A DNA stretch of 64,000 bases from Tropicimonas marinistellae. Its GTDB lineage: Bacteria > Pseudomonadota > Alphaproteobacteria > Rhodobacterales > Rhodobacteraceae. The notes under the pieces were generated by a model that was not told the origin of the DNA, did no database searches, and was given only the letters and a program-made list of their open reading frames with translations. Location: the NCBI RefSeq assembly GCF_001509585.1, contig NZ_LNCI01000005.1:186001-250000 (forward strand), read 5' to 3'. Positions 4,361-20,660 of the stretch are shown here, one piece after another (positions within the stretch are counted from its first letter, which is position 1; each line of letters starts with the position of its first letter). Both the position numbers and the translations under genes were made by a program.

Positions 4361-4422
4361 CGTGCACCGGTTCGATCCCGGCAGTCCTTTTCCTCGTTGT
4401 CTCATAATCAGCGCCGAAGTTT

Positions 4423-4785
4423 TCAGGTGGCGGCGCGGTAGGGCTCACCACTTCGAAACACGGCCCAGATCGTCCGTGCGATCTTGTAGGAGACCGCAAC
4501 CGTAGCTCGGTTGTAGCCTCGCCGCCCCCGAAGGTCGTTAACCCAGGCGTTCATCTGGTCGTTCTTGCTTGGCGCAGTCCGGACGACCGCTCTCGCTCCG
4601 TGGGCGAGCAACGTGCGGGGATGCGGGCTTCGTAGTTTCGAGATGCGCATAATGGTCCTCTTGTCGCCGTTAGAGTGCGGTCTGGGGAAAAGACCGAGCC
4701 AGGTGGCCCAATGTCTCCCGCTATGGAACTCCGTTCCGTCGCCGCTTGTGGCAACGGTCCGCTTTGAGCTCGCTGATCGTTAGTT
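4423..4785 (-). pseudogene. IS110-family transposase, C-terminal fragment
   Basis: The minus strand reads FHSGRHWATWLGLFPR, then HSNGDKRTIMRISKLRSPH, RTLLAHGARAVVR and RRGYNRATVAVSYKIARTIW, ending at FRSGEPYRAAT. This is the transposase-20 domain that closes IS110-family enzymes (the usual text is GR.FAAWLGL.P....GGK.RLG.ISK.G...LR.LLV.GA.AV). The frame is intact for about 120 codons and is preceded by an in-frame stop, so the N-terminal DEDD domain is missing. Confidence 0.85.
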
Positions 4786-5168
4786 GACTGCTACCGCAGT
4801 ACAAAGGTCTTGAGATTTGACCTTTCTAACGCGGGTACAGAAAATGGCCGTTCGTTACCTACCCACCGAAGTCGGGTCGGAAATGGAAGGTTATGCGGAC
4901 AACGCGTTTACGCGCTTTGGCCGGTCAAACATTCACTGCGGGCAAGACTCGCACCAATAGCTCGATCCAACCGCCAACCACACGAGACACGCCCAGTCCG
5001 ACCCATTCCCCACGACCGGCATGGCCGACGGCATCGCGGAGCTTCGCTGCAACTGAAGTGTTTGCGACCCTGTTCACCCTGTGCGAGTGTATCGCAGATC
5101 TCAAGGGTATCGGACTTCCGTTGACCGGCCAGAAACGAGAAAGCGTCGTTCTTCGACGAGGTGCACAG

Positions 5169-6749
5169 ATGGCCACGCCAGAACGCTCTTCTGGAAGGAA
5201 CGCCCGGGTCAAAATGCATGGCCACACCTTCTCCAAATTGCTTAGAGGCATCGTCATCGCGGTAAGCGTACTGCTCGTAGAATCCGGGGTCGCACCCTTG
5301 ATGGCGAAGGCTCCACACGGCGCGGACAATGCGCCAGAAACACGCGCAGGCCTGTATCCCACGAATCCGATGGTTTTTGAACTCGACGTTCCGATTGATC
5401 CAATGGGACTAGGGGCACTCTTCGCTCACGACCTTACCGGGGACGGCCAGATGGATTTCGTTGTCACATCCCCGGGCCATGTCGCGGCCTACTCCAGCGC
5501 GGGCGCGCAGCTCTGGCACGTCCGCGATGAAATCGCCCTCAACCGTGCGGACCGCGGATCCGGGTATCCGGGGCTCCACGCGCCCGGCGCGATCGCCGGC
5601 GATATGGATGGCGACGGTCGGGAAGAAGTGGCTTACTTGCTGTCAGACGGCATGTTGATTGTCCGGGATGCGCGGAACGGCAAGACTGAGCGGAGCTTCC
5701 ACTTCCCTGGCGCCCTTGCCCTTGCCATCGCAGACTTTCGCGGAAAAGGCGAGCGCGACGCCGTGCTTCAATACAGCCAGCGCGAGCTTCGCGCGATAGA
5801 TCTCGAGAATGGTCAAACACTCTGGCATGTCACGGATTGGTGGGGTGTCGAGCACAGCGTGGTCCGGACGATAGACCTCGATGGCGATGGCCATGACGAA
5901 GTCGTCGGGCCCATCCTTCTCGACCGAAACGGAACGCTTTTACAAACTGCCGCGCACGAAGGTACGCGGATGGACGCCTTCGACAGCCTCGCCGTCGGGG
6001 ATATTCTGCCCGAGCCCGGGCTCGAGATCGCGCTCGCCGAGCAACATGGCAACGAAGAGACGATCGTTCTGAGTCCGTCGGGCGCGGGCTGGACTGCCCA
6101 CCACGAACCGGGCGGCGTCTGGGCGATCGGCGAGTGCCGCTACAACCAAGATCCCGACAAGCTCGCTGTGGGCGACTTCGACACCGACCATCCGGGGCAA
6201 GAAGTCTTTGCACGGTCGTCTTGCGGCAACCACCCGTGGTTGATGAGTCGTGAGGGGGAGGTCATTGGGACCTGGTCGGTCGGCCGAAGTGCACCGCCTG
6301 GTTGGTGCCATGTCGGCGATTGCCGGGCCGAGTCAAAGGCCGGCGTTATCGAGCGGATTGTAGACTGGATTCGGGTCGATTTCCGCGGTGGTCGCAGTGC
6401 TCAGAGAGGAGAATACGGCATCGACATTGCGAGGCCGGTTCACTGGGACGGGACTGGCCGACAACTCCTCTTCGTGACTGAGCGTCATGTAGATGGCCAA
6501 ATCGCGCTCGTCGATGCCCGGAACGGACTCTTCCTTCGCGTTTGGCCTGCCGAGGCGGCACGGACCTACGCCGCCGACGTAGCGGGAGATTTCCGCGAAG
6601 AGCTCATCGTACTGGAGGCACGTCGTGACGGGTCGGTTCTGAAGATCTTCTGGAACGACGCGGAGGCGACAGGACAACCGCGCGCGTCGCTATGGGACGA
6701 TCAGCATTACCGCCGGACCCGGCAGAACTGGAACTACTACTCACCTTAA
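5169..6749 (+). CDS. Secreted FG-GAP / VCBS repeat beta-propeller protein
   Basis: 526 aa from ATG 5169, which has GAGG seven bases upstream; an ATG at 5214 is an alternative that places the signal peptide at the very N-terminus. A hydrophobic signal segment (LLRGIVIAVSVLLVESGVAPL) is followed by calcium-loop repeats of the FG-GAP type: DLTGDGQMDF (about residues 88-97), DMDGDGREEV (about 145) and DLDGDGHDEVV (about 237), with degenerate copies later. Such propellers act outside the cytoplasm in binding or polysaccharide processing; the substrate cannot be told. The C-terminus is aromatic (NWNYYSP). Transposase scars lie on the left and a nuclease pseudogene on the right, so lateral acquisition is likely. 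Confidence 0.75.
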   Translation: MATPERSSGRNARVKMHGHTFSKLLRGIVIAVSVLLVESGVAPLMAKAPHGADNAPETRAGLYPTNPMVFELDVPIDPMGLGALFAHDLTGDGQMDFVVTSPGHVAAYSSAGAQLWHVRDEIALNRADRGSGYPGLHAPGAIAGDMDGDGREEVAYLLSDGMLIVRDARNGKTERSFHFPGALALAIADFRGKGERDAVLQYSQRELRAIDLENGQTLWHVTDWWGVEHSVVRTIDLDGDGHDEVVGPILLDRNGTLLQTAAHEGTRMDAFDSLAVGDILPEPGLEIALAEQHGNEETIVLSPSGAGWTAHHEPGGVWAIGECRYNQDPDKLAVGDFDTDHPGQEVFARSSCGNHPWLMSREGEVIGTWSVGRSAPPGWCHVGDCRAESKAGVIERIVDWIRVDFRGGRSAQRGEYGIDIARPVHWDGTGRQLLFVTERHVDGQIALVDARNGLFLRVWPAEAARTYAADVAGDFREELIVLEARRDGSVLKIFWNDAEATGQPRASLWDDQHYRRTRQNWNYYSP

Positions 6750-9886: not shown

Positions 9887-10160
9887 GGGTTGCCTCCTGG
9901 TGCGGGACGATCGCTGCTCGTCGCAAAGTCTCTAAAACAACGGTGCGCCCCCGAGCGCACCATTCATATGCAGAAGACGGCCTGTTTCAATAGTAATGAG
10001 GCGACGGACGGCGACATTGCCAAGGATCAAAGACTTCAACGAGCGGTGGCGTCAGAATACAAAGCGGCATAATGAAACAGCTGTGCCTCGCTGGTAAATG
10101 ACGATGGTGGCTGTGTTCGATCTTCGGTTCAAAAGCGGCAATGGCCGCTAGTTATCGCTC

Positions 10161-11933: not shown

Positions 11934-12028
11934 CTGCAACCAATAGGGAGATCAATTGCAACCAATCAAGCAGAAGTCAACAATTCCCTTGACTGGTCGC
12001 CGATTGGGTGGCGATATTTGCAACCAAT
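11934..12028. promoter_or_regulatory. Three direct repeats TTGCAACCAAT/TGCAACCAAT, probable GntR operator
   Basis: The motif TGCAACCAAT occurs at 11935-11944, and TTGCAACCAAT at 11956-11966 and 12018-12028, all in the same orientation. A partial copy (CCAACCAAT) is at about 12042-12050, and an opposed ATTGG is at 12003-12007. They fill the space between the divergent FAH and GntR genes. FadR-type GntR proteins commonly bind TTGGT..ACCAA-like half-sites, so these are good candidates for autoregulation and control of the flanking units. The binding itself is inference. Confidence 0.6.
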
Positions 12029-12751
12029 ATGAACAATCTCGCCAACCAATTATCCGACCGCACGGCCGACGTGGAACCGCCTACCCCGCGAGGAGAGGCG
12101 GAAATGAAACTGCGCAAGCTGATCGCGGACGGTGCCTACGCACCGGGGGACCGGCTTCCGCCGGAGCGGGAATTGATCGTAACACTGGGCCTGTCCCGCG
12201 CGCGGCTGCGCAAGGCGCTGGAGACACTGGAGAACGAAGGCCGGATCTGGCGCCACGTCGGCAAAGGCACTTTCGTTTCCAGCGAGGCCGAGGGTGCGGG
12301 CGTCGGCGTTCTGCATGAACTCGCCCGGCAGATTTCACCGTTCAAGATGATGCGCGCCCGAATGGCCATCGAACCGGCGATCGCCCGGGAAGCCGCGATG
12401 AACGCGTCGGCCAGCGCCCTGTCGCGGATCGACCATACGCGTGAAAAGGCGGTGAACGCCCCCACATGGGACGAATACGAGGAATTCGACGACTTGCTTC
12501 ACCGCCAGATCGCGCTGGCGACGGACAACGCACTATTGGTTTCGATGTTCGATCAGCTCAATCAGGTGCGCCGCGCGGTCGCCTGGGGCAATGTCGTGCG
12601 CGCCTCCGTCCGTCCGCCGCAGGATCATACGAGCTTTGCGGAACACGACCGGATCGCCGAAGCCATCGCAGCGCGGGATCCGATTGCGGCACAGGACGCG
12701 ATGCGCGCGCATCTCGCTTCGGTCGCGTCACGACTCTTCGGGGAGGTTTGA
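12029..12751 (+). CDS. GntR-family (FadR subfamily) transcriptional regulator
   Basis: 240 aa from ATG 12029. A GTG at 12008 would extend it by seven codons, but those codons overlap the third operator-like repeat. The N-terminal winged helix-turn-helix (about residues 20-85) contains LRKLIADGAYAPGDRLPPER, SRARLRKALETLENEG and WRHVGKGTFV. The C-terminal FCD ligand domain (about 100-235) includes EFDDLLHRQIA and AEHDRIAEAIAARDPIAAQD, with His and Asp residues that often bind a metal. FCD regulators usually sense carboxylic acids. It lies immediately upstream of the ABC transporter genes on the same strand and divergent from the FAH gene. Confidence 0.9.
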   Translation: MNNLANQLSDRTADVEPPTPRGEAEMKLRKLIADGAYAPGDRLPPERELIVTLGLSRARLRKALETLENEGRIWRHVGKGTFVSSEAEGAGVGVLHELARQISPFKMMRARMAIEPAIAREAAMNASASALSRIDHTREKAVNAPTWDEYEEFDDLLHRQIALATDNALLVSMFDQLNQVRRAVAWGNVVRASVRPPQDHTSFAEHDRIAEAIAARDPIAAQDAMRAHLASVASRLFGEV

Positions 12752-12838
12752 GACACCGAGCACAGGACCGGTCAACGAGGCGAAAGACCCCGGACGAGGC
12801 CGGCAAATGCAGACTGACATTTGTCAAGGGAGGACACC

Positions 12839-13804
12839 ATGAGACATCTGCTCAAGCACGCTGCAATCGCCGCGTTTGCCGTAGGGATCGCGGCACCCGC
12901 CGCGCAGGCGGATACGATCCGTATCGCGCTTGCCGAGACACCATCAGACGAGTTGGCCGCCTTCTTCGTGGCGCTGGAACGTGCGAAGGCAAATGGCCTC
13001 GAATACGAATGGACAGCCTTTTCCGATGAAGAGCTGGCCATTCAGGCAGTGCTGAGCGGCCAGATGGATATCGGGTTCGGCACGCCCTACGCGGCCATGC
13101 AACGTTCCAAGGCACCGATCAGGATCGTTTTCCAGCTCTCGAAGCTGAAGTTCTTCCCGGTAACCTCTCAAAAATACGAAAAACTGGAGGATCTCGATGG
13201 CGAGCCGATCATGCTCCATTCGCGGGGCGGCGGTACGGATTCGATCGCCAACGTCATCGAGGGCAAATATGACATAACCTTCGGCGAACGCTCCTACGTG
13301 CCCGGATCAGCGAACCGGATCGTGGCCCTCATGGCCGGGCAGACCGACGCGACGATCGTGGATCTTTCCAACAAGAACAAGCTGATGAAACAGGCGGGCG
13401 ACAAGTTCAACGTCCTGCCGATGTTCGAGGTAGAGGCGAGTGACGAGGCGCTCTTTGCCAATCTCGACTGGATCCAGAACAACGAGGAAGCGGTCAACAC
13501 CTTCGTGGCGGCTTTGGCAAGTACCTGGAAGGATATGTCCGAGGACCCGACGATCATCAGCCGCGAAACCAACCCGGACGGTCCCATCGGCCAGCTTCCG
13601 GCGGAGATACTCGGCAACCTCGACACTTTCTACACCGATGCCGTCGAAGGCGGGCTCTATGACCCCGACGGTGGTGGCCGGAAGGCGGCCGAGGCCGACA
13701 TGGAGTGGTACTCCGCAGCCGGTCAGCTTGAGGGCGACCCAGGCGACCTAAACATCGACGATTTCTGGTATATGGCGCCGCTCGACGCGGCGACCGGGAA
13801 CTGA
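12839..13804 (+). CDS. ABC transporter substrate-binding protein, NitT/TauT (SsuA) type
   Basis: 321 aa periplasmic protein. The ATG is preceded by GGGAGGA. A Sec signal peptide (HLLKHAAIAAFAVGIAAPAAQA) is followed by mature sequence DTIRIALAETPSDELAAFFV. The text QAVLSGQMDIGFGTPYAAMQ and LMAGQTDATIVDLS matches the NMT1/OMP-like fold that binds nitrate, sulfonates, taurine, pyrimidine precursors or small aromatics. It starts a four-gene transporter operon with two permeases and one ATPase. The specificity is unknown, and the linked FAH enzyme suggests an organic acid. Confidence 0.88.
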   Translation: MRHLLKHAAIAAFAVGIAAPAAQADTIRIALAETPSDELAAFFVALERAKANGLEYEWTAFSDEELAIQAVLSGQMDIGFGTPYAAMQRSKAPIRIVFQLSKLKFFPVTSQKYEKLEDLDGEPIMLHSRGGGTDSIANVIEGKYDITFGERSYVPGSANRIVALMAGQTDATIVDLSNKNKLMKQAGDKFNVLPMFEVEASDEALFANLDWIQNNEEAVNTFVAALASTWKDMSEDPTIISRETNPDGPIGQLPAEILGNLDTFYTDAVEGGLYDPDGGGRKAAEADMEWYSAAGQLEGDPGDLNIDDFWYMAPLDAATGN

Positions 13805-13878
13805 CTCAGCATTGCAGCGGCCGGACCGGAACCCCGGGCCGGCCAATGCCGCATCACCCTTTACCGGAGGCATATCGG

Positions 13879-14640
13879 ATGCTCACGCGCCCGACCCTTC
13901 TCAAGATCCTTTCCACGCTGATCCTGTTCGGCGCATGGGAGATCGCTGGCCGCATTCCGGTCAGCTACGCCTTCCCGACGTTCATCGAATCTATGCAGGC
14001 GCTGGCCCGCATGACCTTCGACGGGACGCTTTTTGTTGCCTACGGAGAAACGCTCAAACCGCTCGTCATCGGGATCCTGATCTCGACTGTTCTTGGCATA
14101 ACCATCGGCCTTTTCATCGGGTTGAGTGGATGGTTCGACTGGCTGATGTCGCCCATCTTCATCGTCATGCAGGCTGCACCACTCGCTGCGCTTATCCCGC
14201 TTCTCGTCATGGCCTACGGGATCGGGCTGACGTCCAAGGTCTTTGTTGTCTGCATCATGGCGATGCCGGTAATCGTGCTGAACACGTCCAGTGCTGTCCG
14301 CAATACGCCGGGCTCGCTGAAGGAGATGGGGCGCTCCTACCTTGCCAGCGACACCGAGATCATCACCAAGATTATCATTCCCTCGGCATCGCCGCTCATC
14401 TTCTCCGGCTTGCGCCTGGGCATTTCCGCCGGGTTCATCGGGGCGATCCTTTCTGAGCTCAAGATCACCCCGACGGGCGTGGGCGACATCATCACTTTCA
14501 GTCGCTCAATTGCGGACTACCCGTCGATGTACGCGGCGATCTTCTCGATCATCCTGCTTGCAGTGCTTTTTCTTAATCTTCTGGAATCAATAGAAAACTA
14601 CCTGTTCGAAGGGAACAACCGTGGATATGTCTCAGACTAA
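13879..14640 (+). CDS. ABC transporter permease, NitT/TauT type (first)
   Basis: 253 aa inner-membrane permease from an ATG with GGAGG upstream; an upstream in-frame start at 13846 lacks a ribosome site. It has six hydrophobic segments. The cytoplasmic EAA-type loop lies near residues 145-175 (EMGRSYLASDTEIITKIIIP), typical of the binding-protein-dependent transport family. Its 3' end overlaps the ATPase gene by 20 bases, consistent with translational coupling. Confidence 0.88.
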   Translation: MLTRPTLLKILSTLILFGAWEIAGRIPVSYAFPTFIESMQALARMTFDGTLFVAYGETLKPLVIGILISTVLGITIGLFIGLSGWFDWLMSPIFIVMQAAPLAALIPLLVMAYGIGLTSKVFVVCIMAMPVIVLNTSSAVRNTPGSLKEMGRSYLASDTEIITKIIIPSASPLIFSGLRLGISAGFIGAILSELKITPTGVGDIITFSRSIADYPSMYAAIFSIILLAVLFLNLLESIENYLFEGNNRGYVSD

Positions 14641-15427
14641 GAGCGCATTCGGGCAGGCTGCTTCGCTCGATACCGAGCACGCCGTCATTACGCGCAATAT
14701 TTGCAAGAACTACGGGGCCGTCGAGGCTCTCAAGGACTTGTCTCTTGAGTTTCCGAGGGGGCAACTCACCTCCCTGCTCGGCCCGTCCGGTTGTGGCAAG
14801 ACCACGTTGTTGAAGATCATTGCCGGGCTTCTGGAACCCACTTCCGGCGAGGTGGAGGTCAACGGGAGGCTGATCAACGGGCCTGGACCGAACCGCGCCT
14901 TCGTGTTTCAGGATTTCGCGCTGCTGCCCTGGGCCTCCGTCATGCGCAATGTCGCCTTCGGTCTGGAACTCCGCGGTATGCCGAAATCCGAACGTGAGGC
15001 GATTGCGGAGAATTACATTTCGGCCGTTGGTCTCTCGGGTTTCGAAAACAGCTATCCGCACGAGCTTTCCGGTGGAATGAGGCAGCGGGTCGGCCTCGCC
15101 CGGGCACTATCGGTCGATGCTAAGGTGCTGCTGATGGACGAGCCCTTCTCTGCCGTTGACGAACAGACCCGCCGCAAGTTTCAAGAGGACTTGCTGGGCC
15201 TCGTTCAAAACGAAAACAAGACATTCATCTTTGTGACACACTCGATCGAAGAGGCGGTCTATGTCTCCGACCAGATAGCGATCCTTTTGCCGCGACCGAG
15301 CCGTGTGAGCGAAATCATCCGACCCAGGGCGCTGCATGGAAAGGACGTTTCCAACATCCGCCGCGATCCGGAATATCTCGATATCGTCGACCAGATCTGG
15401 GCCTCGCTGCGCAGCTATGTGGAGTAA
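14621..15427 (+). CDS. ABC transporter ATP-binding protein, NitT/TauT (SsuB) type
   Basis: 268 aa cytoplasmic ATPase. Walker A GPSGCGKTT, Q-loop VFQDFALLPW, signature LSGGMRQRVGLARAL, Walker B VLLMDEPFSAVD and H-loop FVTHSIEEAVY are all intact. The GTG at 14621 has AAGGG seven bases upstream; ATG 14627 is the alternative. SsuB/TauB-type proteins energise import of sulfonates, nitrate and related small anions. It is the third gene of the operon, between the two permease genes. Confidence 0.9.
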   Translation: MDMSQTKSAFGQAASLDTEHAVITRNICKNYGAVEALKDLSLEFPRGQLTSLLGPSGCGKTTLLKIIAGLLEPTSGEVEVNGRLINGPGPNRAFVFQDFALLPWASVMRNVAFGLELRGMPKSEREAIAENYISAVGLSGFENSYPHELSGGMRQRVGLARALSVDAKVLLMDEPFSAVDEQTRRKFQEDLLGLVQNENKTFIFVTHSIEEAVYVSDQIAILLPRPSRVSEIIRPRALHGKDVSNIRRDPEYLDIVDQIWASLRSYVE

Positions 15428-15430
15428 GTC

Positions 15431-16183
15431 ATGAAAGTCGGAAATATCCAGCTTCCGGGCATGTCCTCGCTGCTCCTGTGGGGGCTGATCTGGGAAATCG
15501 TCGGCCGCTCCGGGCTCACCTTCTTCGTGCCCCCGTTGTCCGAGGTTATAGCGACCCTCTTTTCGGTAATCGGCACCCCGGCCTTCCTGACGGCATTGTC
15601 GGAAACCGCATATGCCTTCTTCCTCGGCGTCTTCTTTGCCATCGTCATCGGGGTGCCGGTGGGCATTCTGATGGGCAAGAACCGACTTGCGGACGAACTC
15701 CTATTGCCCTGGGTCAACATATTCCTGTCAGCACCACTGACCGCGCTGGTGCCGGTTCTCATGGTCCTCTTCGGCTTCGGCATGAAGTCCATCATTATCA
15801 CCACCACGCTCTTTGCGATCTGGATCATCATCCTGAACGCACGCGCCGGTGTGAAGCAGATCAACCGGTCTCTGGTCGACATGGCGAAGAGTTTCCTTGC
15901 CACGCCGTGGGACGCATTCTTCAAGATCTACATCTGGGCGGCACTGCCGGAAATCCTCGGGGGCATCCGGATCGGGGTGATCCGTGCCGTGAAAGGGGTC
16001 ATCATCGGCCAATTGCTGATCAGTATCGTCGGCTTCGGGGCGCTGTTCGAACTTTATTCCTCGAACTTCCTGATGGGGCACTTCTGGGCCGTGCTGATTG
16101 TCCTGTTCGCTATGGCCTTCGCGGTCTCCGAACTCCTGGCCTATCTTGAACGCAGAGTGTCTTACTACGCTGCCACAAGGTAG
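15431..16183 (+). CDS. ABC transporter permease, NitT/TauT type (second)
   Basis: 250 aa inner-membrane permease starting three bases after the ATPase stop. The EAA-type loop is visible as LVDMAKSFLATPWDAFFKIY, followed by IWAALPEILGGIRIGVIRAV. It differs clearly in sequence from the first permease, so the channel is probably a heterodimer rather than the homodimer of SsuC/TauC systems. It is the last gene of the operon. Confidence 0.88.
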   Translation: MKVGNIQLPGMSSLLLWGLIWEIVGRSGLTFFVPPLSEVIATLFSVIGTPAFLTALSETAYAFFLGVFFAIVIGVPVGILMGKNRLADELLLPWVNIFLSAPLTALVPVLMVLFGFGMKSIIITTTLFAIWIIILNARAGVKQINRSLVDMAKSFLATPWDAFFKIYIWAALPEILGGIRIGVIRAVKGVIIGQLLISIVGFGALFELYSSNFLMGHFWAVLIVLFAMAFAVSELLAYLERRVSYYAATR

Positions 16184-17067
16184 ACCTGATCTTCAGAAAC
16201 GACGGAGAACCACCACCCAAGTTATAGAAATAGTAACTGGCGGAGGGGACGGGCTTCGAACGTCAGATCCGGAAGCCGCTCCGGGCCCTTCTGCTGCGCG
16301 GCGGCCGGACGCGGGGAGCGCGGAGCTCCATGTTCCAGAAATTTCGAGGGGGGCGATCACTTCAGCGGACAGCAGAGACGACCTCCCGTGCCTTCGAACA
16401 ACCGCCACTGACTTGGCTTGCGGCGAGACCCCGCACTCCGACGTTATGGATCATCTGCTTGGACCCTTCGACCATCGCGAACGGCCCACAGCTGCCATTC
16501 GTGCGAGCCGCACAAACGAGTGATTTGCCGACATTGCCGCCGTTTGTTGTAAACGCGAAGAGACAGATTGCGCGGAAGTGGTGGCGGTATCAACGTGGCG
16601 GGGAACTGAAGCCCGTTGGCGATAAGATGAACCGCTTCGTCCGCACAAGTTTGAGACACTCAGAGACGCACCATGGAAAGGCAACCAGTGTGGTGTGTTA
16701 GCCGAAGCCTCAAGTTCGAGCCGGCTATCGTTGATTGTTGGGAAGGTGGCGCCATTCCGTTGTGGGCGGCGCTAAGCTACGATTGTTTCTTTTCGCGAAC
16801 TTCAAGCGAAAAACCAGCATCGAACCTACAGCAATGAAAGGCGGTACCCTGCGCGACCGTTAGGTGCAGACTTTTGACGGCCAGCCAATTGTGTATTCAC
16901 AATTTATATTTTAAATACAGTTGCTTGCAAGGAGATTGTGCCGATTTGCCCACTATGTGGCGTGTCACATTCTTGTTACTTTCGTGTTATGGGATTTGAG
17001 AAACTCCCGGCGTGGACGCGCAGCGAGCGTACCGAGTCCCCCTGACACAACAACGGAAGGTGGACAG
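16184..17067. other. Long stretch without a recognisable gene
   Basis: Nearly 900 bases between the ABC operon and the cytochrome cluster. It contains a tRNA-3'-end-like sequence (16238-16261) and an AT-rich patch around 16885-16920 that is a plausible promoter zone for the cytochrome genes. Open frames here have no recognisable content. Confidence 0.5.
16238..16261 (-). other. tRNA-Ser-like 3' end fragment (possible att site)
   Basis: On the minus strand the bases read GTTCGAAGCCCGTCCCCT then CCGCCA, which resembles a T-loop (TTCGA), a T-stem and an acceptor 3' strand ending in CCA, as in Ser-type tRNAs. The sequence farther 5' does not form the rest of a tRNA. Such displaced tRNA 3' ends are commonly left by tRNA-targeting integrases. 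No integrase gene is seen in the window, so this is suggestive only. Confidence 0.4.
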
Positions 17068-18234
17068 ATGACACTTGTATTGCGTGCCACCGTTTTGGCG
17101 GCAGTTATCGCCGGCCTCGGCATGGTTGGCGGACTGACAGGTTCAAACGCTCAGGAGACTGAAATCACTCCGGCAACCCTGATGCCGGAAATCCCGGCAC
17201 TGGAGGCCTGGCGGTCCTCACCCCACGCGGACATCACGAAGGAAGCCTTTCGCCATTGGGACGAGGAAGAAGACAAGCTTATCCCGGAGACCTGCGCCAA
17301 ATGCCACTCGACGGCTGGCTACCTCGACTATCTCGGGGCGGACGGTACCGAGGCCGGCGTCGTGGATACAAAACATGCCACCGCTGCAGCCGAAGCGCCT
17401 GGTGTCGCCTGTATGGCGTGCCACAGTTCGGAGGCCCGAAATCGGACCGTCGTGACGTTCCCGTCCGGCGCCGCGCAGGAAGTCTTTACCCCAGATGTGC
17501 GCTGCATGACATGCCATGGCGGCCGTGCATCGACCGTTCAGGTCAACGCAAAGTTCGAGGAACTCGGTCTCACAGATGCCGATACCGGCCATGAGGAGCT
17601 TGGATTTATCAATGTGCACTACCGCCCCGCGGCCGCGACCCGTTTCGGTGGCGAGGTACAGGGCGGATACGAGTACGACGGCAAGGAATATGCGGGATTC
17701 TACTTCCACGATCGTGACTCGCAGACCTGCAACGACTGCCACTCTCCACATACGCTGAAGGTGAAGGTCGCGGCATGCACCGACTGCCATGACGAGGTCG
17801 ATGCGGCAAATGCCGAGACAATGCGGCTCGTGCGCAGCTCCAAGGCGGACTATGATGCCGATGGCGACGTGGCCGAAGGTATCGATGCCGAAATCACCGC
17901 GCTTCAGGAACAACTCTATGCAGCGATCGTCGGATATGCGGACGGTGTCCTCGGCAAGCCCGTCGTCTTCAAAGGCACCAATTACCCGTATTTTTTCAAC
18001 GACCTCAACGGGAACGGCGAGGCGGATGAGGATGAAGTGAAATATCCGAACCGCTATCAGTCCTGGACGCCCCGCATGCTGAAGGCCGCCTACAACTACA
18101 ACTACGTCTCGAAGGACCCGGGGGCCTACACGCACAACCCGTTCTACTCGCTCCAGCTCAGCTACGACTCGGCCGTTGACCTGGCCGAGGGTGGTAGCGG
18201 TGTAGACGTGATTGGGGAGCGCCCGGAAGAGTAG
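17068..18234 (+). CDS. Periplasmic pentahaem cytochrome c
   Basis: 388 aa from ATG 17068; a longer frame to 16921 is not favoured because the signal peptide (VLRATVLAAVIAGLGMVGGL ... NAQ) begins here. Five CXXCH haem-attachment motifs occur at residues 76-80 (CAKCH), 115-119 (CMACH), 146-150 (CMTCH), 221-225 (CNDCH) and 237-241 (CTDCH). The last 140 residues lack haem motifs and carry an acidic, EF-hand-like stretch (NDLNGNGEADEDEVKYPN). Role: periplasmic electron carrier or catalytic partner, inferred from linkage to the tetrathionate-reductase-family cytochrome and cytochrome b downstream. I do not recognise a named family for the whole protein. Confidence 0.88.
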   Translation: MTLVLRATVLAAVIAGLGMVGGLTGSNAQETEITPATLMPEIPALEAWRSSPHADITKEAFRHWDEEEDKLIPETCAKCHSTAGYLDYLGADGTEAGVVDTKHATAAAEAPGVACMACHSSEARNRTVVTFPSGAAQEVFTPDVRCMTCHGGRASTVQVNAKFEELGLTDADTGHEELGFINVHYRPAAATRFGGEVQGGYEYDGKEYAGFYFHDRDSQTCNDCHSPHTLKVKVAACTDCHDEVDAANAETMRLVRSSKADYDADGDVAEGIDAEITALQEQLYAAIVGYADGVLGKPVVFKGTNYPYFFNDLNGNGEADEDEVKYPNRYQSWTPRMLKAAYNYNYVSKDPGAYTHNPFYSLQLSYDSAVDLAEGGSGVDVIGERPEE

Positions 18235-18266
18235 AGAACCCCGGCATCCAAATCCCTGAGTTCCGC

Positions 18267-18291
18267 AACCGGCCGCGATACGCGGCCGGTT
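18267..18291 (+). terminator. Strong hairpin between the two haem cytochrome genes
   Basis: A perfect 11-bp stem (AACCGGCCGCG) with the three-base loop ATA. It is followed by TTCCATC rather than a run of T. It lies 33 bases after the first cytochrome stop and may act as an intra-operon attenuator or an mRNA-stability element as much as a terminator. Confidence 0.6.
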
Positions 18292-18328
18292 CCATCATTC
18301 GGATCACGATCTGCAAAGGACGACATCA

Positions 18329-20035
18329 ATGGCTCTGCCATGGCTTCGCACCCTGATCCTTGCGCTCCTATTGGCAGGATTGACTGTGCCGGTTGCAATT
18401 TCCCAGACGGACATTGCAACGGTGTCCTCGTCGACGGCCGATCACAGCCAATTTGAAGACCTTCAGGGGCCGTTCAGGTCCGCCAGCGAGGTCAGCGACG
18501 CTTGCCTCGGATGCCACAACACCGGATCGGAGCAATTGCACGGGTCCATTCACTTCACCTGGACGGCACCGCAGGTGGAGAGCGACGCCCGGGACCTCGG
18601 AATGCTCCATGTGTCCAACGGGTTCCTGCTGTCCGTGCCGTCTAATCTTGACGCGTGTACCTCTTGCCATATTGCCGGAACACGGCTCGACGATATGGCG
18701 ATGCTCGATGCGTCAAGCGATCCGGTGGCGCCGGTTGATTGCCTCACTTGCCACGAGCCTACAGGGCAGTGGACCGTTGCCAATTTTCACGAAAACGGCT
18801 CGGCCTGCACGATGTGCCACGATGAGAGGTTAAGGGGGGACACGCCCGAGGTGGAGGACCTTGCAGTGGCAGCCCGTTCTGTCGGTGCCACCACGCGCGC
18901 CGCTTGCGGGACCTGCCATTTCGACGCAGATGGAGGCCCGGGCGTCAAACATGGCGACCTGAACGCCGACCTGATCGCCCCTTCTGCGGACTTGGATGTC
19001 CACATGTCAGCCAAACCGGACGGCGCGGGTTTTACCTGCGCCACCTGCCATACAACGCGCGACCATGTCACGACCGGCAGCCGGTACACCGGGGCGCCGG
19101 GCGACAAACCCGATCGCCCTGCGCTGGCCGGTGCGGCGGCATCCTGCCAAAGCTGCCACAGCCCGACTCCCCATGCCGACCTCGGAAGTGGCGCGAGGCT
19201 CGACCGGCATATCGACAGCGTAGCCTGCGAGACTTGCCACATCCCCTCCTTTGCCCGTGGCGACACCCAGACTCGCGTGCTGTGGGACTGGTCGAGCGTG
19301 GGCGAATTGGACCGCCGTCGCCAGCCATATGTCGACAAGGAGAAGGACGGGACGGTCGCCTATGCCTCGGAGAAAGGCCACTTTGCGTGGGCGCGGGAAG
19401 TCGAACCGACGCTGATCTGGTCGGACGGAAAGCTTGTGACCCATCGGCCTGGGGACGTGGTGTCAGGCATTGCCACCGACGACGCGGACGAGCTTGATGA
19501 TGACGCCCGCGAAGGGGATCTTGAGTCTATCGCAGCAGCCTTCGCCGAGGCCCCGTGGATCGCGCTTTATGGAGGCGAACCTGCTGCTGCGGACTCCCGT
19601 ATCGCTCCGGTAAAAGTAATGAACTCGGTTATTCCGATCGACCAAGAAAGCCGCGCGCTTGTCTCCGTCCTGCTCGCCGGCCGCAGTCGCGACGCACTTT
19701 GGAACGACTTCCGCTGGGAAGATGCCGTCGAAGCTGGAATGGAAGAGGCCGATGCCCGGTTCAGCGGCGACGTGGCTTTTGCACGCGTCCGCCAGATGAT
19801 CCCGGTCAATCACATGGTTGCCCCGGCAGAGCAAGCGCTCGAATGTGTGGACTGCCATGCCACAGACGGCGTTATCTCCGACCTTCCCGGCGGCTTTGTA
19901 CCGGGGCGAGACCGCATTGGATGGCTGGACGCGGCAGGTTTGGCACTCATAGGCGCGACTTTGGCAGCGGCCTTCGTTCACCTGATCCTACGGCTCGGCT
20001 TCGGGCTCTTCCACAGGAAAAACCGTCATGGCTGA
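18329..20035 (+). CDS. Octahaem tetrathionate reductase family cytochrome c, with nine CXXCH motifs and a membrane anchor
   Basis: 568 aa. A signal peptide (LRTLILALLLAGLTVPVAIS) precedes CXXCH motifs at residues 59 (CLGCH), 110 (CTSCH), 138 (CLTCH), 160 (CTMCH), 193 (CGTCH), 237 (CATCH), 273 (CQSCH), 300 (CETCH) and 506 (CVDCH). Family phrases CGTCHFDADGGPGVKHGDL, ACETCHIPSFARGDTQ and HMVAPAEQALECVDCHATDG identify the octahaem tetrathionate reductase (OTR) type. A transmembrane helix (about 535-556) and a basic tail anchor it. The motif at 160 is additional to the eight expected. OTR enzymes reduce tetrathionate, nitrite or hydroxylamine in vitro; the physiological substrate is open. It overlaps the cytochrome b gene by 8 bases. 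Confidence 0.9.
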   Translation: MALPWLRTLILALLLAGLTVPVAISQTDIATVSSSTADHSQFEDLQGPFRSASEVSDACLGCHNTGSEQLHGSIHFTWTAPQVESDARDLGMLHVSNGFLLSVPSNLDACTSCHIAGTRLDDMAMLDASSDPVAPVDCLTCHEPTGQWTVANFHENGSACTMCHDERLRGDTPEVEDLAVAARSVGATTRAACGTCHFDADGGPGVKHGDLNADLIAPSADLDVHMSAKPDGAGFTCATCHTTRDHVTTGSRYTGAPGDKPDRPALAGAAASCQSCHSPTPHADLGSGARLDRHIDSVACETCHIPSFARGDTQTRVLWDWSSVGELDRRRQPYVDKEKDGTVAYASEKGHFAWAREVEPTLIWSDGKLVTHRPGDVVSGIATDDADELDDDAREGDLESIAAAFAEAPWIALYGGEPAAADSRIAPVKVMNSVIPIDQESRALVSVLLAGRSRDALWNDFRWEDAVEAGMEEADARFSGDVAFARVRQMIPVNHMVAPAEQALECVDCHATDGVISDLPGGFVPGRDRIGWLDAAGLALIGATLAAAFVHLILRLGFGLFHRKNRHG

Positions 20036-20660
20036 CACGCGACAGCAGAGCGCTAAAGGCGTCTTTCTGTTTCCCCTGTTTGAACGATTCTGGCACTGGT
20101 CACAGGCAATGCTGATAATCGGCCTCATGGTCACCGGAGCCGAGATACGTGGTTACTGGGCCTTCGTCGGCTTCGAAAAGGCGTTGAACCTGCATATCAT
20201 CGGCGCGTTTTCCCTGATCGTTCTGTGGACTTTTGCTATTTTCTGGCATGTCGTAACGGGCCAATGGCGCCACTACGTGCTTACCACCAAGGGTCTCTGG
20301 AAGGTTGTCCTGTTTTATGCGTCGGGAATATTCCTTGGCTCGCCGCATCCGTTCCGCCCTTCTCCCAAACGCAAGCACAACCCGATGCAGGCAATGGCAT
20401 ACCTGACGTTCCATCTGTTGATGGCTCCGGCAATCTGGATTTCGGGCGTGATCTTGTGGATCTACGGCAGGTACCCCGCGCTGTACCCCGACGCCGTTCC
20501 AGTTATCTGGATTAACGGCGTCCACGTCGCCGCGGCTTTCCTGATCGGGGCGTTCCTGGTCGCGCATCTCTACCTGATCACAACAGGAGAGACTGTCTTT
20601 GCACAACTTCGCGCAATGATCACTGGCTGGGACAATTTCGGAAAGGTCGAAGAAGACTGA
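20028..20660 (+). CDS. Membrane cytochrome b (formate dehydrogenase gamma / Ni-Fe hydrogenase cytochrome b type)
   Basis: 210 aa, four to five transmembrane segments. Candidate haem b ligands are histidines in FLFPLFERFWHWSQAMLIIG, LNLHIIGAFSLIVLW and FWHV, and in a second set near the C-terminus (INGVHVAAAFLIGAFLVAHL). These proteins exchange electrons between quinol and periplasmic partners. It is translationally coupled (8-base overlap) to the nine-motif cytochrome, so a quinol-cytochrome b-multihaem c chain is the simplest reading. It is the last gene of the cluster. Confidence 0.88.
   Translation: MADTRQQSAKGVFLFPLFERFWHWSQAMLIIGLMVTGAEIRGYWAFVGFEKALNLHIIGAFSLIVLWTFAIFWHVVTGQWRHYVLTTKGLWKVVLFYASGIFLGSPHPFRPSPKRKHNPMQAMAYLTFHLLMAPAIWISGVILWIYGRYPALYPDAVPVIWINGVHVAAAFLIGAFLVAHLYLITTGETVFAQLRAMITGWDNFGKVEED

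Follow-up and report, generated by a model that had tools for sequence, protein, structure and literature searches.

The subject of this analysis is a cluster of three linked respiratory genes (hereafter the trio), which lies at positions 17068 to 20660 of a stretch of 64,000 nucleotides of Tropicimonas marinistellae DNA (contig NZ_LNCI01000005.1, positions 186,001 to 250,000, forward strand; hereafter the window). The trio had been described in a first-pass annotation made from the sequence alone; its coordinates, five plus nine CXXCH motifs, cytochrome b gene and 8-base overlap between genes 2 and 3 were all found to be real. The following features were assigned:

17068..18234, + strand: gene 1, soluble periplasmic pentahaem c-type cytochrome (388 amino acids, 5 CXXCH), candidate terminal reductase or electron acceptor
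18329..20035, + strand: gene 2, nine-haem OTR-family cytochrome, OTR9 (568 amino acids, 9 CXXCH)
20028..20660, + strand: gene 3, cytochrome b561-family membrane protein (210 amino acids)
18267..18291, + strand: hairpin between genes 1 and 2 (25 bases, 11-bp perfect stem)

The CXXCH counts of genes 1 and 2 compare with shuffled means of 0.007 and 0.025 and with a shuffle maximum of 2 (20,000 shuffles each). Gene 1 starts at the ATG at 17068, the open reading frame (ORF) list beginning upstream at TTG 16921; a putative signal peptide, judged by eye, was taken as 27 amino acids, and generic multihaem families were the sole family matches. Gene 2 belongs to the OTR family, as proposed in the first-pass annotation (TIGR04315, 407.8 bits, cut-off 375; positions 1–434 of the 440 of the model covered). 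It also matches PF11783 (139.3 bits), is homologous to the Shewanella OTR 1SP3 over most of its length with eight haem motifs in register (E 1.4e-60), and carries a hydrophobic C-terminal helix at about residues 532–561, a predicted membrane anchor. Gene 3, the cytochrome b partner of that annotation, was identified as cytochrome b561 (PF01292, 72.0 bits, cut-off 30.1); the match to PRK15006 (thiosulfate reductase cytochrome b, 111 bits) fell below the cut-off of 204. The protein is proposed as a quinol-oxidising module.

Trio loci were collected by scanning the genome collection for gene 2 with short exact peptide patterns, which distant copies may escape. Ten loci were obtained; the complete trio, with order and orientation kept, was found in eight (Tropicimonas, Aliiruegeria and Hoeflea olei), so that conservation as a unit, suggested earlier as a check, was upheld. 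Of the two incomplete loci, L037 begins within the OTR gene at a contig end, and the decayed L036 carries a truncated nine-haem OTR, after position 9910. The nine-haem gene is present in seven of nine Tropicimonas genomes, the window's own included. Mechanical ORFs of the trio's own DNA aside, each other neighbour cluster occurs in at most five of the ten loci, and the flanks differ. That the three are mere neighbours, with independent functions and separate transcription, would be in line with the hairpin, which splits gene 1 from gene 2 in 8/10 loci; it is highly improbable, given that order and orientation are kept between differing flanks and that the pentahaem and nine-haem proteins of the trio each form a single clade (support 100/100). 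No publication on the trio or on the pentahaem–NQR pairing described below was found in a literature search that covered few subscription journals, in agreement with the earlier remark that the trio is not known as a characterised system.

The nine-haem OTR clade

Gene 2 was aligned with 1SP3 and with 49 further OTR sequences. The OTR rows comprise nine nine-haem proteins (window and L028–L035) and 41 eight-haem proteins, 12 from the family Rhodobacteraceae and 29 from the phylum, where OTR was found above cut-off in 45/398 genomes and 29 loci of these were read. The features of gene 2 that bear on its function are:

18806..18820, + strand: extra (ninth) haem motif CTMCH, amino acids 160–164, an insertion relative to 1SP3
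18626..18628, + strand: Leu100, at the place of 1SP3 Cys64 (alignment)
18938..18940, + strand: Pro204, at the place of 1SP3 Asp150 (alignment)
18947..18949, + strand: Lys207, at the place of 1SP3 Lys153 (alignment)

All nine OTR9 rows hold nine CXXCH motifs (eight plus one inserted) and the other 41 hold eight; the extra CTMCH is missing from 1SP3 and from the 12 eight-haem OTRs. At the Cys64 column Leu stands in 9/9 nine-haem rows and Cys in 41/41 eight-haem rows, and at the Asp150 column P, G, Y, Q or N stands in 9/9 and Asp in 41/41. Lys153, which we take to be the haem-ligating lysine of OTR and the ligand of the active-site haem, is Lys in 50/50 rows. The conservation of Cys64 and Asp150 in the eight-haem proteins and their joint loss in OTR9 argue that canonical OTR chemistry is not kept, and with these equivalents lost, tetrathionate reduction by OTR9 should not be assumed. 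The role as terminal tetrathionate, nitrite or hydroxylamine reductase that was implied for gene 2 is therefore not supported. The branch that leads to the nine-haem clade is long (2.11 changes per column); several rows of this tree were flagged for odd letter make-up.

OTR9 thus resembles Shewanella OTR (1SP3, TIGR04315) in overall homology, the eight motifs in register and Lys153, and differs in the ninth haem, the C-terminal membrane anchor, the adjoining pentahaem gene and the two missing residues. A closer comparison is offered by the pair of an eight-haem OTR and cytochrome b561. The window's genome contains such a pair at a second OTR locus (L038, G000:C1:206362-207756), where a canonical eight-haem OTR is followed by its own cytochrome b without a pentahaem gene, and the same arrangement, pentahaem gene absent, was found in 12/12 loci of this genome and its relatives. 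Across the phylum a cytochrome b lies within 1.5 kb of OTR in 25/29 loci. In both pair and trio, a cytochrome b gene of one type comes after the OTR-family gene, and the OTR copies of the family are anchored; the pair lacks a pentahaem gene, and its OTR keeps both Cys and Asp. A decayed OTR gene with stop codons was seen in L050 (G002:C125, about 4412–6267). Oxidative extracellular electron transfer in Thioclava electrotropha, an organism with an eight-haem protein of the OTR family, is reported to proceed without any multihaem cytochrome being essential.

These data bear on a second explanation, by which substrate reduction would fall to OTR9 as terminal enzyme, its specificity having changed; the pentahaem protein would act as a soluble shuttle, either distributing the electrons of OTR9 or bringing it electrons from other sources. 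The family score above cut-off, the lysine kept in every row, and the pairs without a pentahaem gene, by which OTR and cytochrome b can be self-sufficient, are in its favour. It is nevertheless rather unlikely in view of the two lost residues that all 41 eight-haem OTRs keep, and of the distribution and size of the pentahaem protein given below.

The pentahaem protein and its partners in relatives

Distribution: Pentahaem matches were found in 49/295 genomes of the family (46 strong) and OTR in 23/295 (22 over cut-off). Comparison of the two lists gave only five genomes with both (G000, G007, G101, G145 and G212), and in three of these (G101, G145 and G212) the two genes are on different contigs; the pentahaem protein thus occurs mostly without OTR, which speaks against its being a shuttle for OTR9. 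Strong matches (>230 bits) in the phylum sample were confined to 7/398 genomes, all of the same family, with 10 further genomes matching at ≤35 bits. Plasmid records extend the protein to the Hyphomicrobiales (Nitratireductor and Shinella), under the annotations cytochrome c3 family protein, cytochrome C and polyheme membrane-associated cytochrome C. The earlier proviso that the genes might be unlinked in relatives applies to the parts of the trio and not to the trio as a unit: most pentahaem genes have NQR-like or ferric-reductase-like neighbours and no OTR, and most pairs of eight-haem OTR and cytochrome b have no pentahaem gene.

Neighbouring genes: All 45 strong pentahaem loci of the family outside the trio (L061–L080 and L089–L113) were compared. 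The gene nqrA adjoins the pentahaem gene in 31/45, head-to-head in 30 and on the same strand in one (L113, from G020, where the pentahaem/nqr locus is broken and in pieces). The linked cluster is nqrABCDEF-apbE, with some loci cut by contig or stretch ends. A Na+/H+ exchanger-type gene and a CBS-domain gene sometimes accompany the NQR-type clusters. Eleven of the remaining 14 loci have a neighbour with ferric-reductase, flavin adenine dinucleotide (FAD)-binding and nicotinamide adenine dinucleotide (NAD)-binding domains (shown by a Pfam scan for one and extended to the other ten by BLAST grouping), and three have neither type. In 44/45 loci no ORF of at least 100 amino acids other than the pentahaem gene has two or more CXXCH motifs; in the remaining one, L113, the pentahaem gene is broken. 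On plasmids, 4/5 pentahaem loci are nqr-linked (L115–L118); in the fifth (L114, Defluviimonas, NZ_CP156080.1, 7691–18988) the gene lies between two two-component systems, close to a set of PepSY, cytochrome b, DUF2271, PepSY and ApbE genes, which is possibly a fourth electron-input module. No porin, reductase or other periplasmic oxidoreductase was recognised among the shared neighbour clusters listed (one of the lists comprised up to 25 clusters from 20 of the 45 loci; family-library scans were made of some neighbours).

The four linkage labels required four changes on the 59-row pentahaem tree, compared with a mean of 23.2 for shuffled labels (as low in 0/200). The nqr-linked type sits in two parts of this tree, which would fit with an NQR-linked ancestor, the root being arbitrary.

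Linked NQR: The ordinary NqrB of the window's genome, encoded at another locus, carries SGAT, the motif for covalent flavin mononucleotide (FMN), at residues 227–230. These columns are gaps in 30/30 pentahaem-linked NqrB proteins from the family loci, two of which have a similar string elsewhere in the protein; the FMN motif [STA]GA[TS] of linked NqrC is kept in 30/30. The NqrB N-terminus appears shortened in many, to an extent that depends on the choice of start, and therefore only the missing motif is claimed. In Na+-NQR, as described in the literature, NADH is the source of electrons, which reach the periplasmic FMN of NqrC and from there, through NqrB, quinone. The simplest reading of the altered sequences is that the path may end on the periplasmic side, at NqrC, with the haem protein next door. 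Published NQR/RNF-like systems, as far as the accessible parts of PMC8238504 and PMC11334425 describe them, have been proposed to transfer electrons one way to the periplasm and have an NqrB-like subunit without the conserved Thr. The route from NADH to a periplasmic FMN is common to Na+-NQR, to these systems and to the linked NQR; the published NQR/RNF-like type is, in the same portions, an NqrB–NqrF fusion with an FMN-binding protein, whereas the linked NQR comprises six genes, has no FMN motif in its NqrB and adjoins a pentahaem cytochrome.

Conservation and size: In an alignment of 54 pentahaem sequences the five haem motifs and H53, H184, H214, H228 and H356 are invariant, and H63 is kept in 50/54. 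The haem-free C-terminus likewise holds residues that are invariant in 54/54 (Y290, Y308, D312, Y330, N343, H356, N357, Y360 and D367). The mass per haem is 7.9 kDa, compared with 6.0–6.4 kDa for OTR9; multihaem proteins above 7 kDa per haem are described as all catalytic in the part of PMC7096707 that was available, and by that scheme the pentahaem protein is grouped with catalytic multihaem proteins. Such a size per haem, together with an invariant haem-free C-terminus, would be uncommon in a shuttle, a further point against OTR9 as the terminal enzyme. The same size bears on a third explanation, by which the pentahaem protein would serve as an electron hub, in the manner of MmcA with Methanosarcina Rnf, for partners that are encoded elsewhere and reside in the periplasm, in the outer membrane or outside the cell. 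The convergence of three unrelated donor types would suit a hub, as would the multihaem cytochrome that belongs to the Methanosarcina RNF system in the accessible part of PMC12174285; it is an unlikely explanation, however, as 44/45 loci lack a second multihaem ORF, the clusters listed yielded no recognisable porin or reductase, and the pentahaem protein matches catalytic multihaem proteins in its size per haem.

Fold comparisons: A PDB profile search with the pentahaem alignment gave weak matches only, the best being nonahaem cytochrome c (E 2.1e-5). The window protein had no match to PF02335 (NrfA) at E 0.1, and one relative reached 19.2 bits (cut-off 24.1). Comparison with four NrfA sequences by using hhalign gave a probability of 94%, which was carried by the haem motifs and dropped to 0.5% once these were masked; since OTR gives 95% out of register in the same kind of comparison, the raw profile probability for an NrfA-like fold means little. 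The C-terminal part alone scored 21.4 against NrfA; 100 column shuffles gave at most 16.1. The two proteins share five haems in the same order, a similar spacing of haems 1–2 and 3–4 (39 and 75 residues versus 38 and 73 in L139) and, with weak support, a C-terminal helix with an HNP/HAP motif. They differ in the haem 1 motif (CXXCH in the pentahaem protein, CXXCK in NrfA), in the spacing of haems 2–3 and 4–5, and in that no significant profile match is left with the haem motifs masked. An NrfA-like plan of the pentahaem protein is, on sequence grounds, possible but weak.

Proposed electron path

The reading that we favour, with moderate confidence, is that the trio forms a self-contained system for quinol-dependent electron transfer. 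Cytochrome b561 (gene 3) would take electrons from quinol, the membrane-anchored OTR9 (gene 2) would relay them into the periplasm, and the soluble pentahaem protein (gene 1) would receive them, probably as the terminal reductase. In some relatives, an NQR-type complex without the covalent-FMN motif in NqrB would deliver electrons from NADH to the pentahaem protein; in others, a ferric-reductase/FNR-type membrane protein would supply it. The direction of electron flow, the relay role of OTR9 and the catalytic role of the pentahaem protein are what we infer from the genes, their conservation and alternative linkages, the loss of the Cys64 and Asp150 equivalents and the missing NqrB motif, all of which are directly visible in the sequences. 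The pentahaem protein is the wider, constant element of the system. That relatives seem to feed it via quite different membrane machines suggests that it is the key part; it is read as the terminal component because three unrelated donors converge on it and no other periplasmic oxidoreductase was recognised among the listed clusters. The interpretation of the first-pass annotation, a complete path from quinol to a periplasmic terminal acceptor, is thus partly supported as a whole.

Several points weigh against this electron path. Cys64 and Asp150 are presumed by us to line the substrate pocket, and the literature search gave no paper naming those residues; with the Lys153 equivalent kept, OTR9 may still be an enzyme. 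Neither an open haem nor an active site could be recognised in the pentahaem protein, whose six conserved non-motif histidines suffice to ligate its five haems, and the sequence evidence points to no substrate. The rule on mass per haem is a trend. The AlphaFold models, built from input alignments of 10 and 9 close sequences, were poor (mean predicted local distance difference test scores of 45.4 for the pentahaem protein and 31.2 for OTR9). The family-library scans covered the named genes and some of the other neighbours, among which an unrecognised partner enzyme is possible, and given the hairpin gene 1 might be transcribed separately.

A broader reading is put forward tentatively: the pentahaem proteins of Rhodobacteraceae and Hyphomicrobiales may constitute a new class of periplasmic reductase. 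Their electrons would come from membrane modules of three unrelated kinds: an NQR variant without the NqrB flavin, an NADH module of ferric-reductase/FNR type and, in Tropicimonas and its group, an OTR converted from an enzyme to a nine-haem relay on the quinol side. Since the NqrB flavin would be lost, the NQR variant would act within the broader reading as an NADH:periplasmic-haem oxidoreductase and not as a quinone reductase. Respiratory reductases with modular flavinylation and cytochrome use, as described in the accessible part of PMC8238504, are alike in that one type of periplasmic enzyme is served by alternative electron modules; here the constant partner is the pentahaem protein, and one module is a modified OTR with cytochrome b561. 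If true, a sodium-pump family (NQR) would apparently have been redirected from quinone to a periplasmic haem protein, as a natural case, a catalytic multihaem enzyme (OTR) would apparently have been turned into a relay, and the search for a substrate would be narrowed to the pentahaem protein.

Upstream region and intergenic hairpin

One further feature was assigned upstream of gene 1:

16887..16904, no strand: 18-bp perfect palindrome AATTGTGTATTCACAATT

This palindrome, which we take to be of the FNR/CRP type, was not found in the 330 bases upstream in the nine other trio loci. Farther upstream (window 12008–16183) lie genes for a GntR/FCD regulator, an NMT1/TauT-type binding protein, two permeases and an ATPase. 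This ABC transporter was considered as a part of the system and rejected: the 10 trio loci gave no binding-protein or permease match, and ABC ATPases of other systems only.

The hairpin between genes 1 and 2 was aligned over eight of the ten trio loci (L034 and L036 were left out, having no comparable stem; the OTR start in L036 is guessed). Of the aligned cells, 92.7% are paired and eight have changes on both sides; the covariation score is 0.271, and 0/500 shuffles reached any of these values. The three pairs with a change on both sides were matched by 208/500 and the nine pair types by 226/500, and kinship alone can push related sequences past such shuffles without structure. In 20 non-trio loci no stem of at least 10 bp was found within 100 bases after the pentahaem gene, and perfect stems of 6–8 bp were present in 10/20. 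The hairpin is possibly a partial terminator or a 3′-end stabiliser. Because of it, the products of the three genes could differ in amount, and gene 1 may be expressed at a higher level than the membrane pair.

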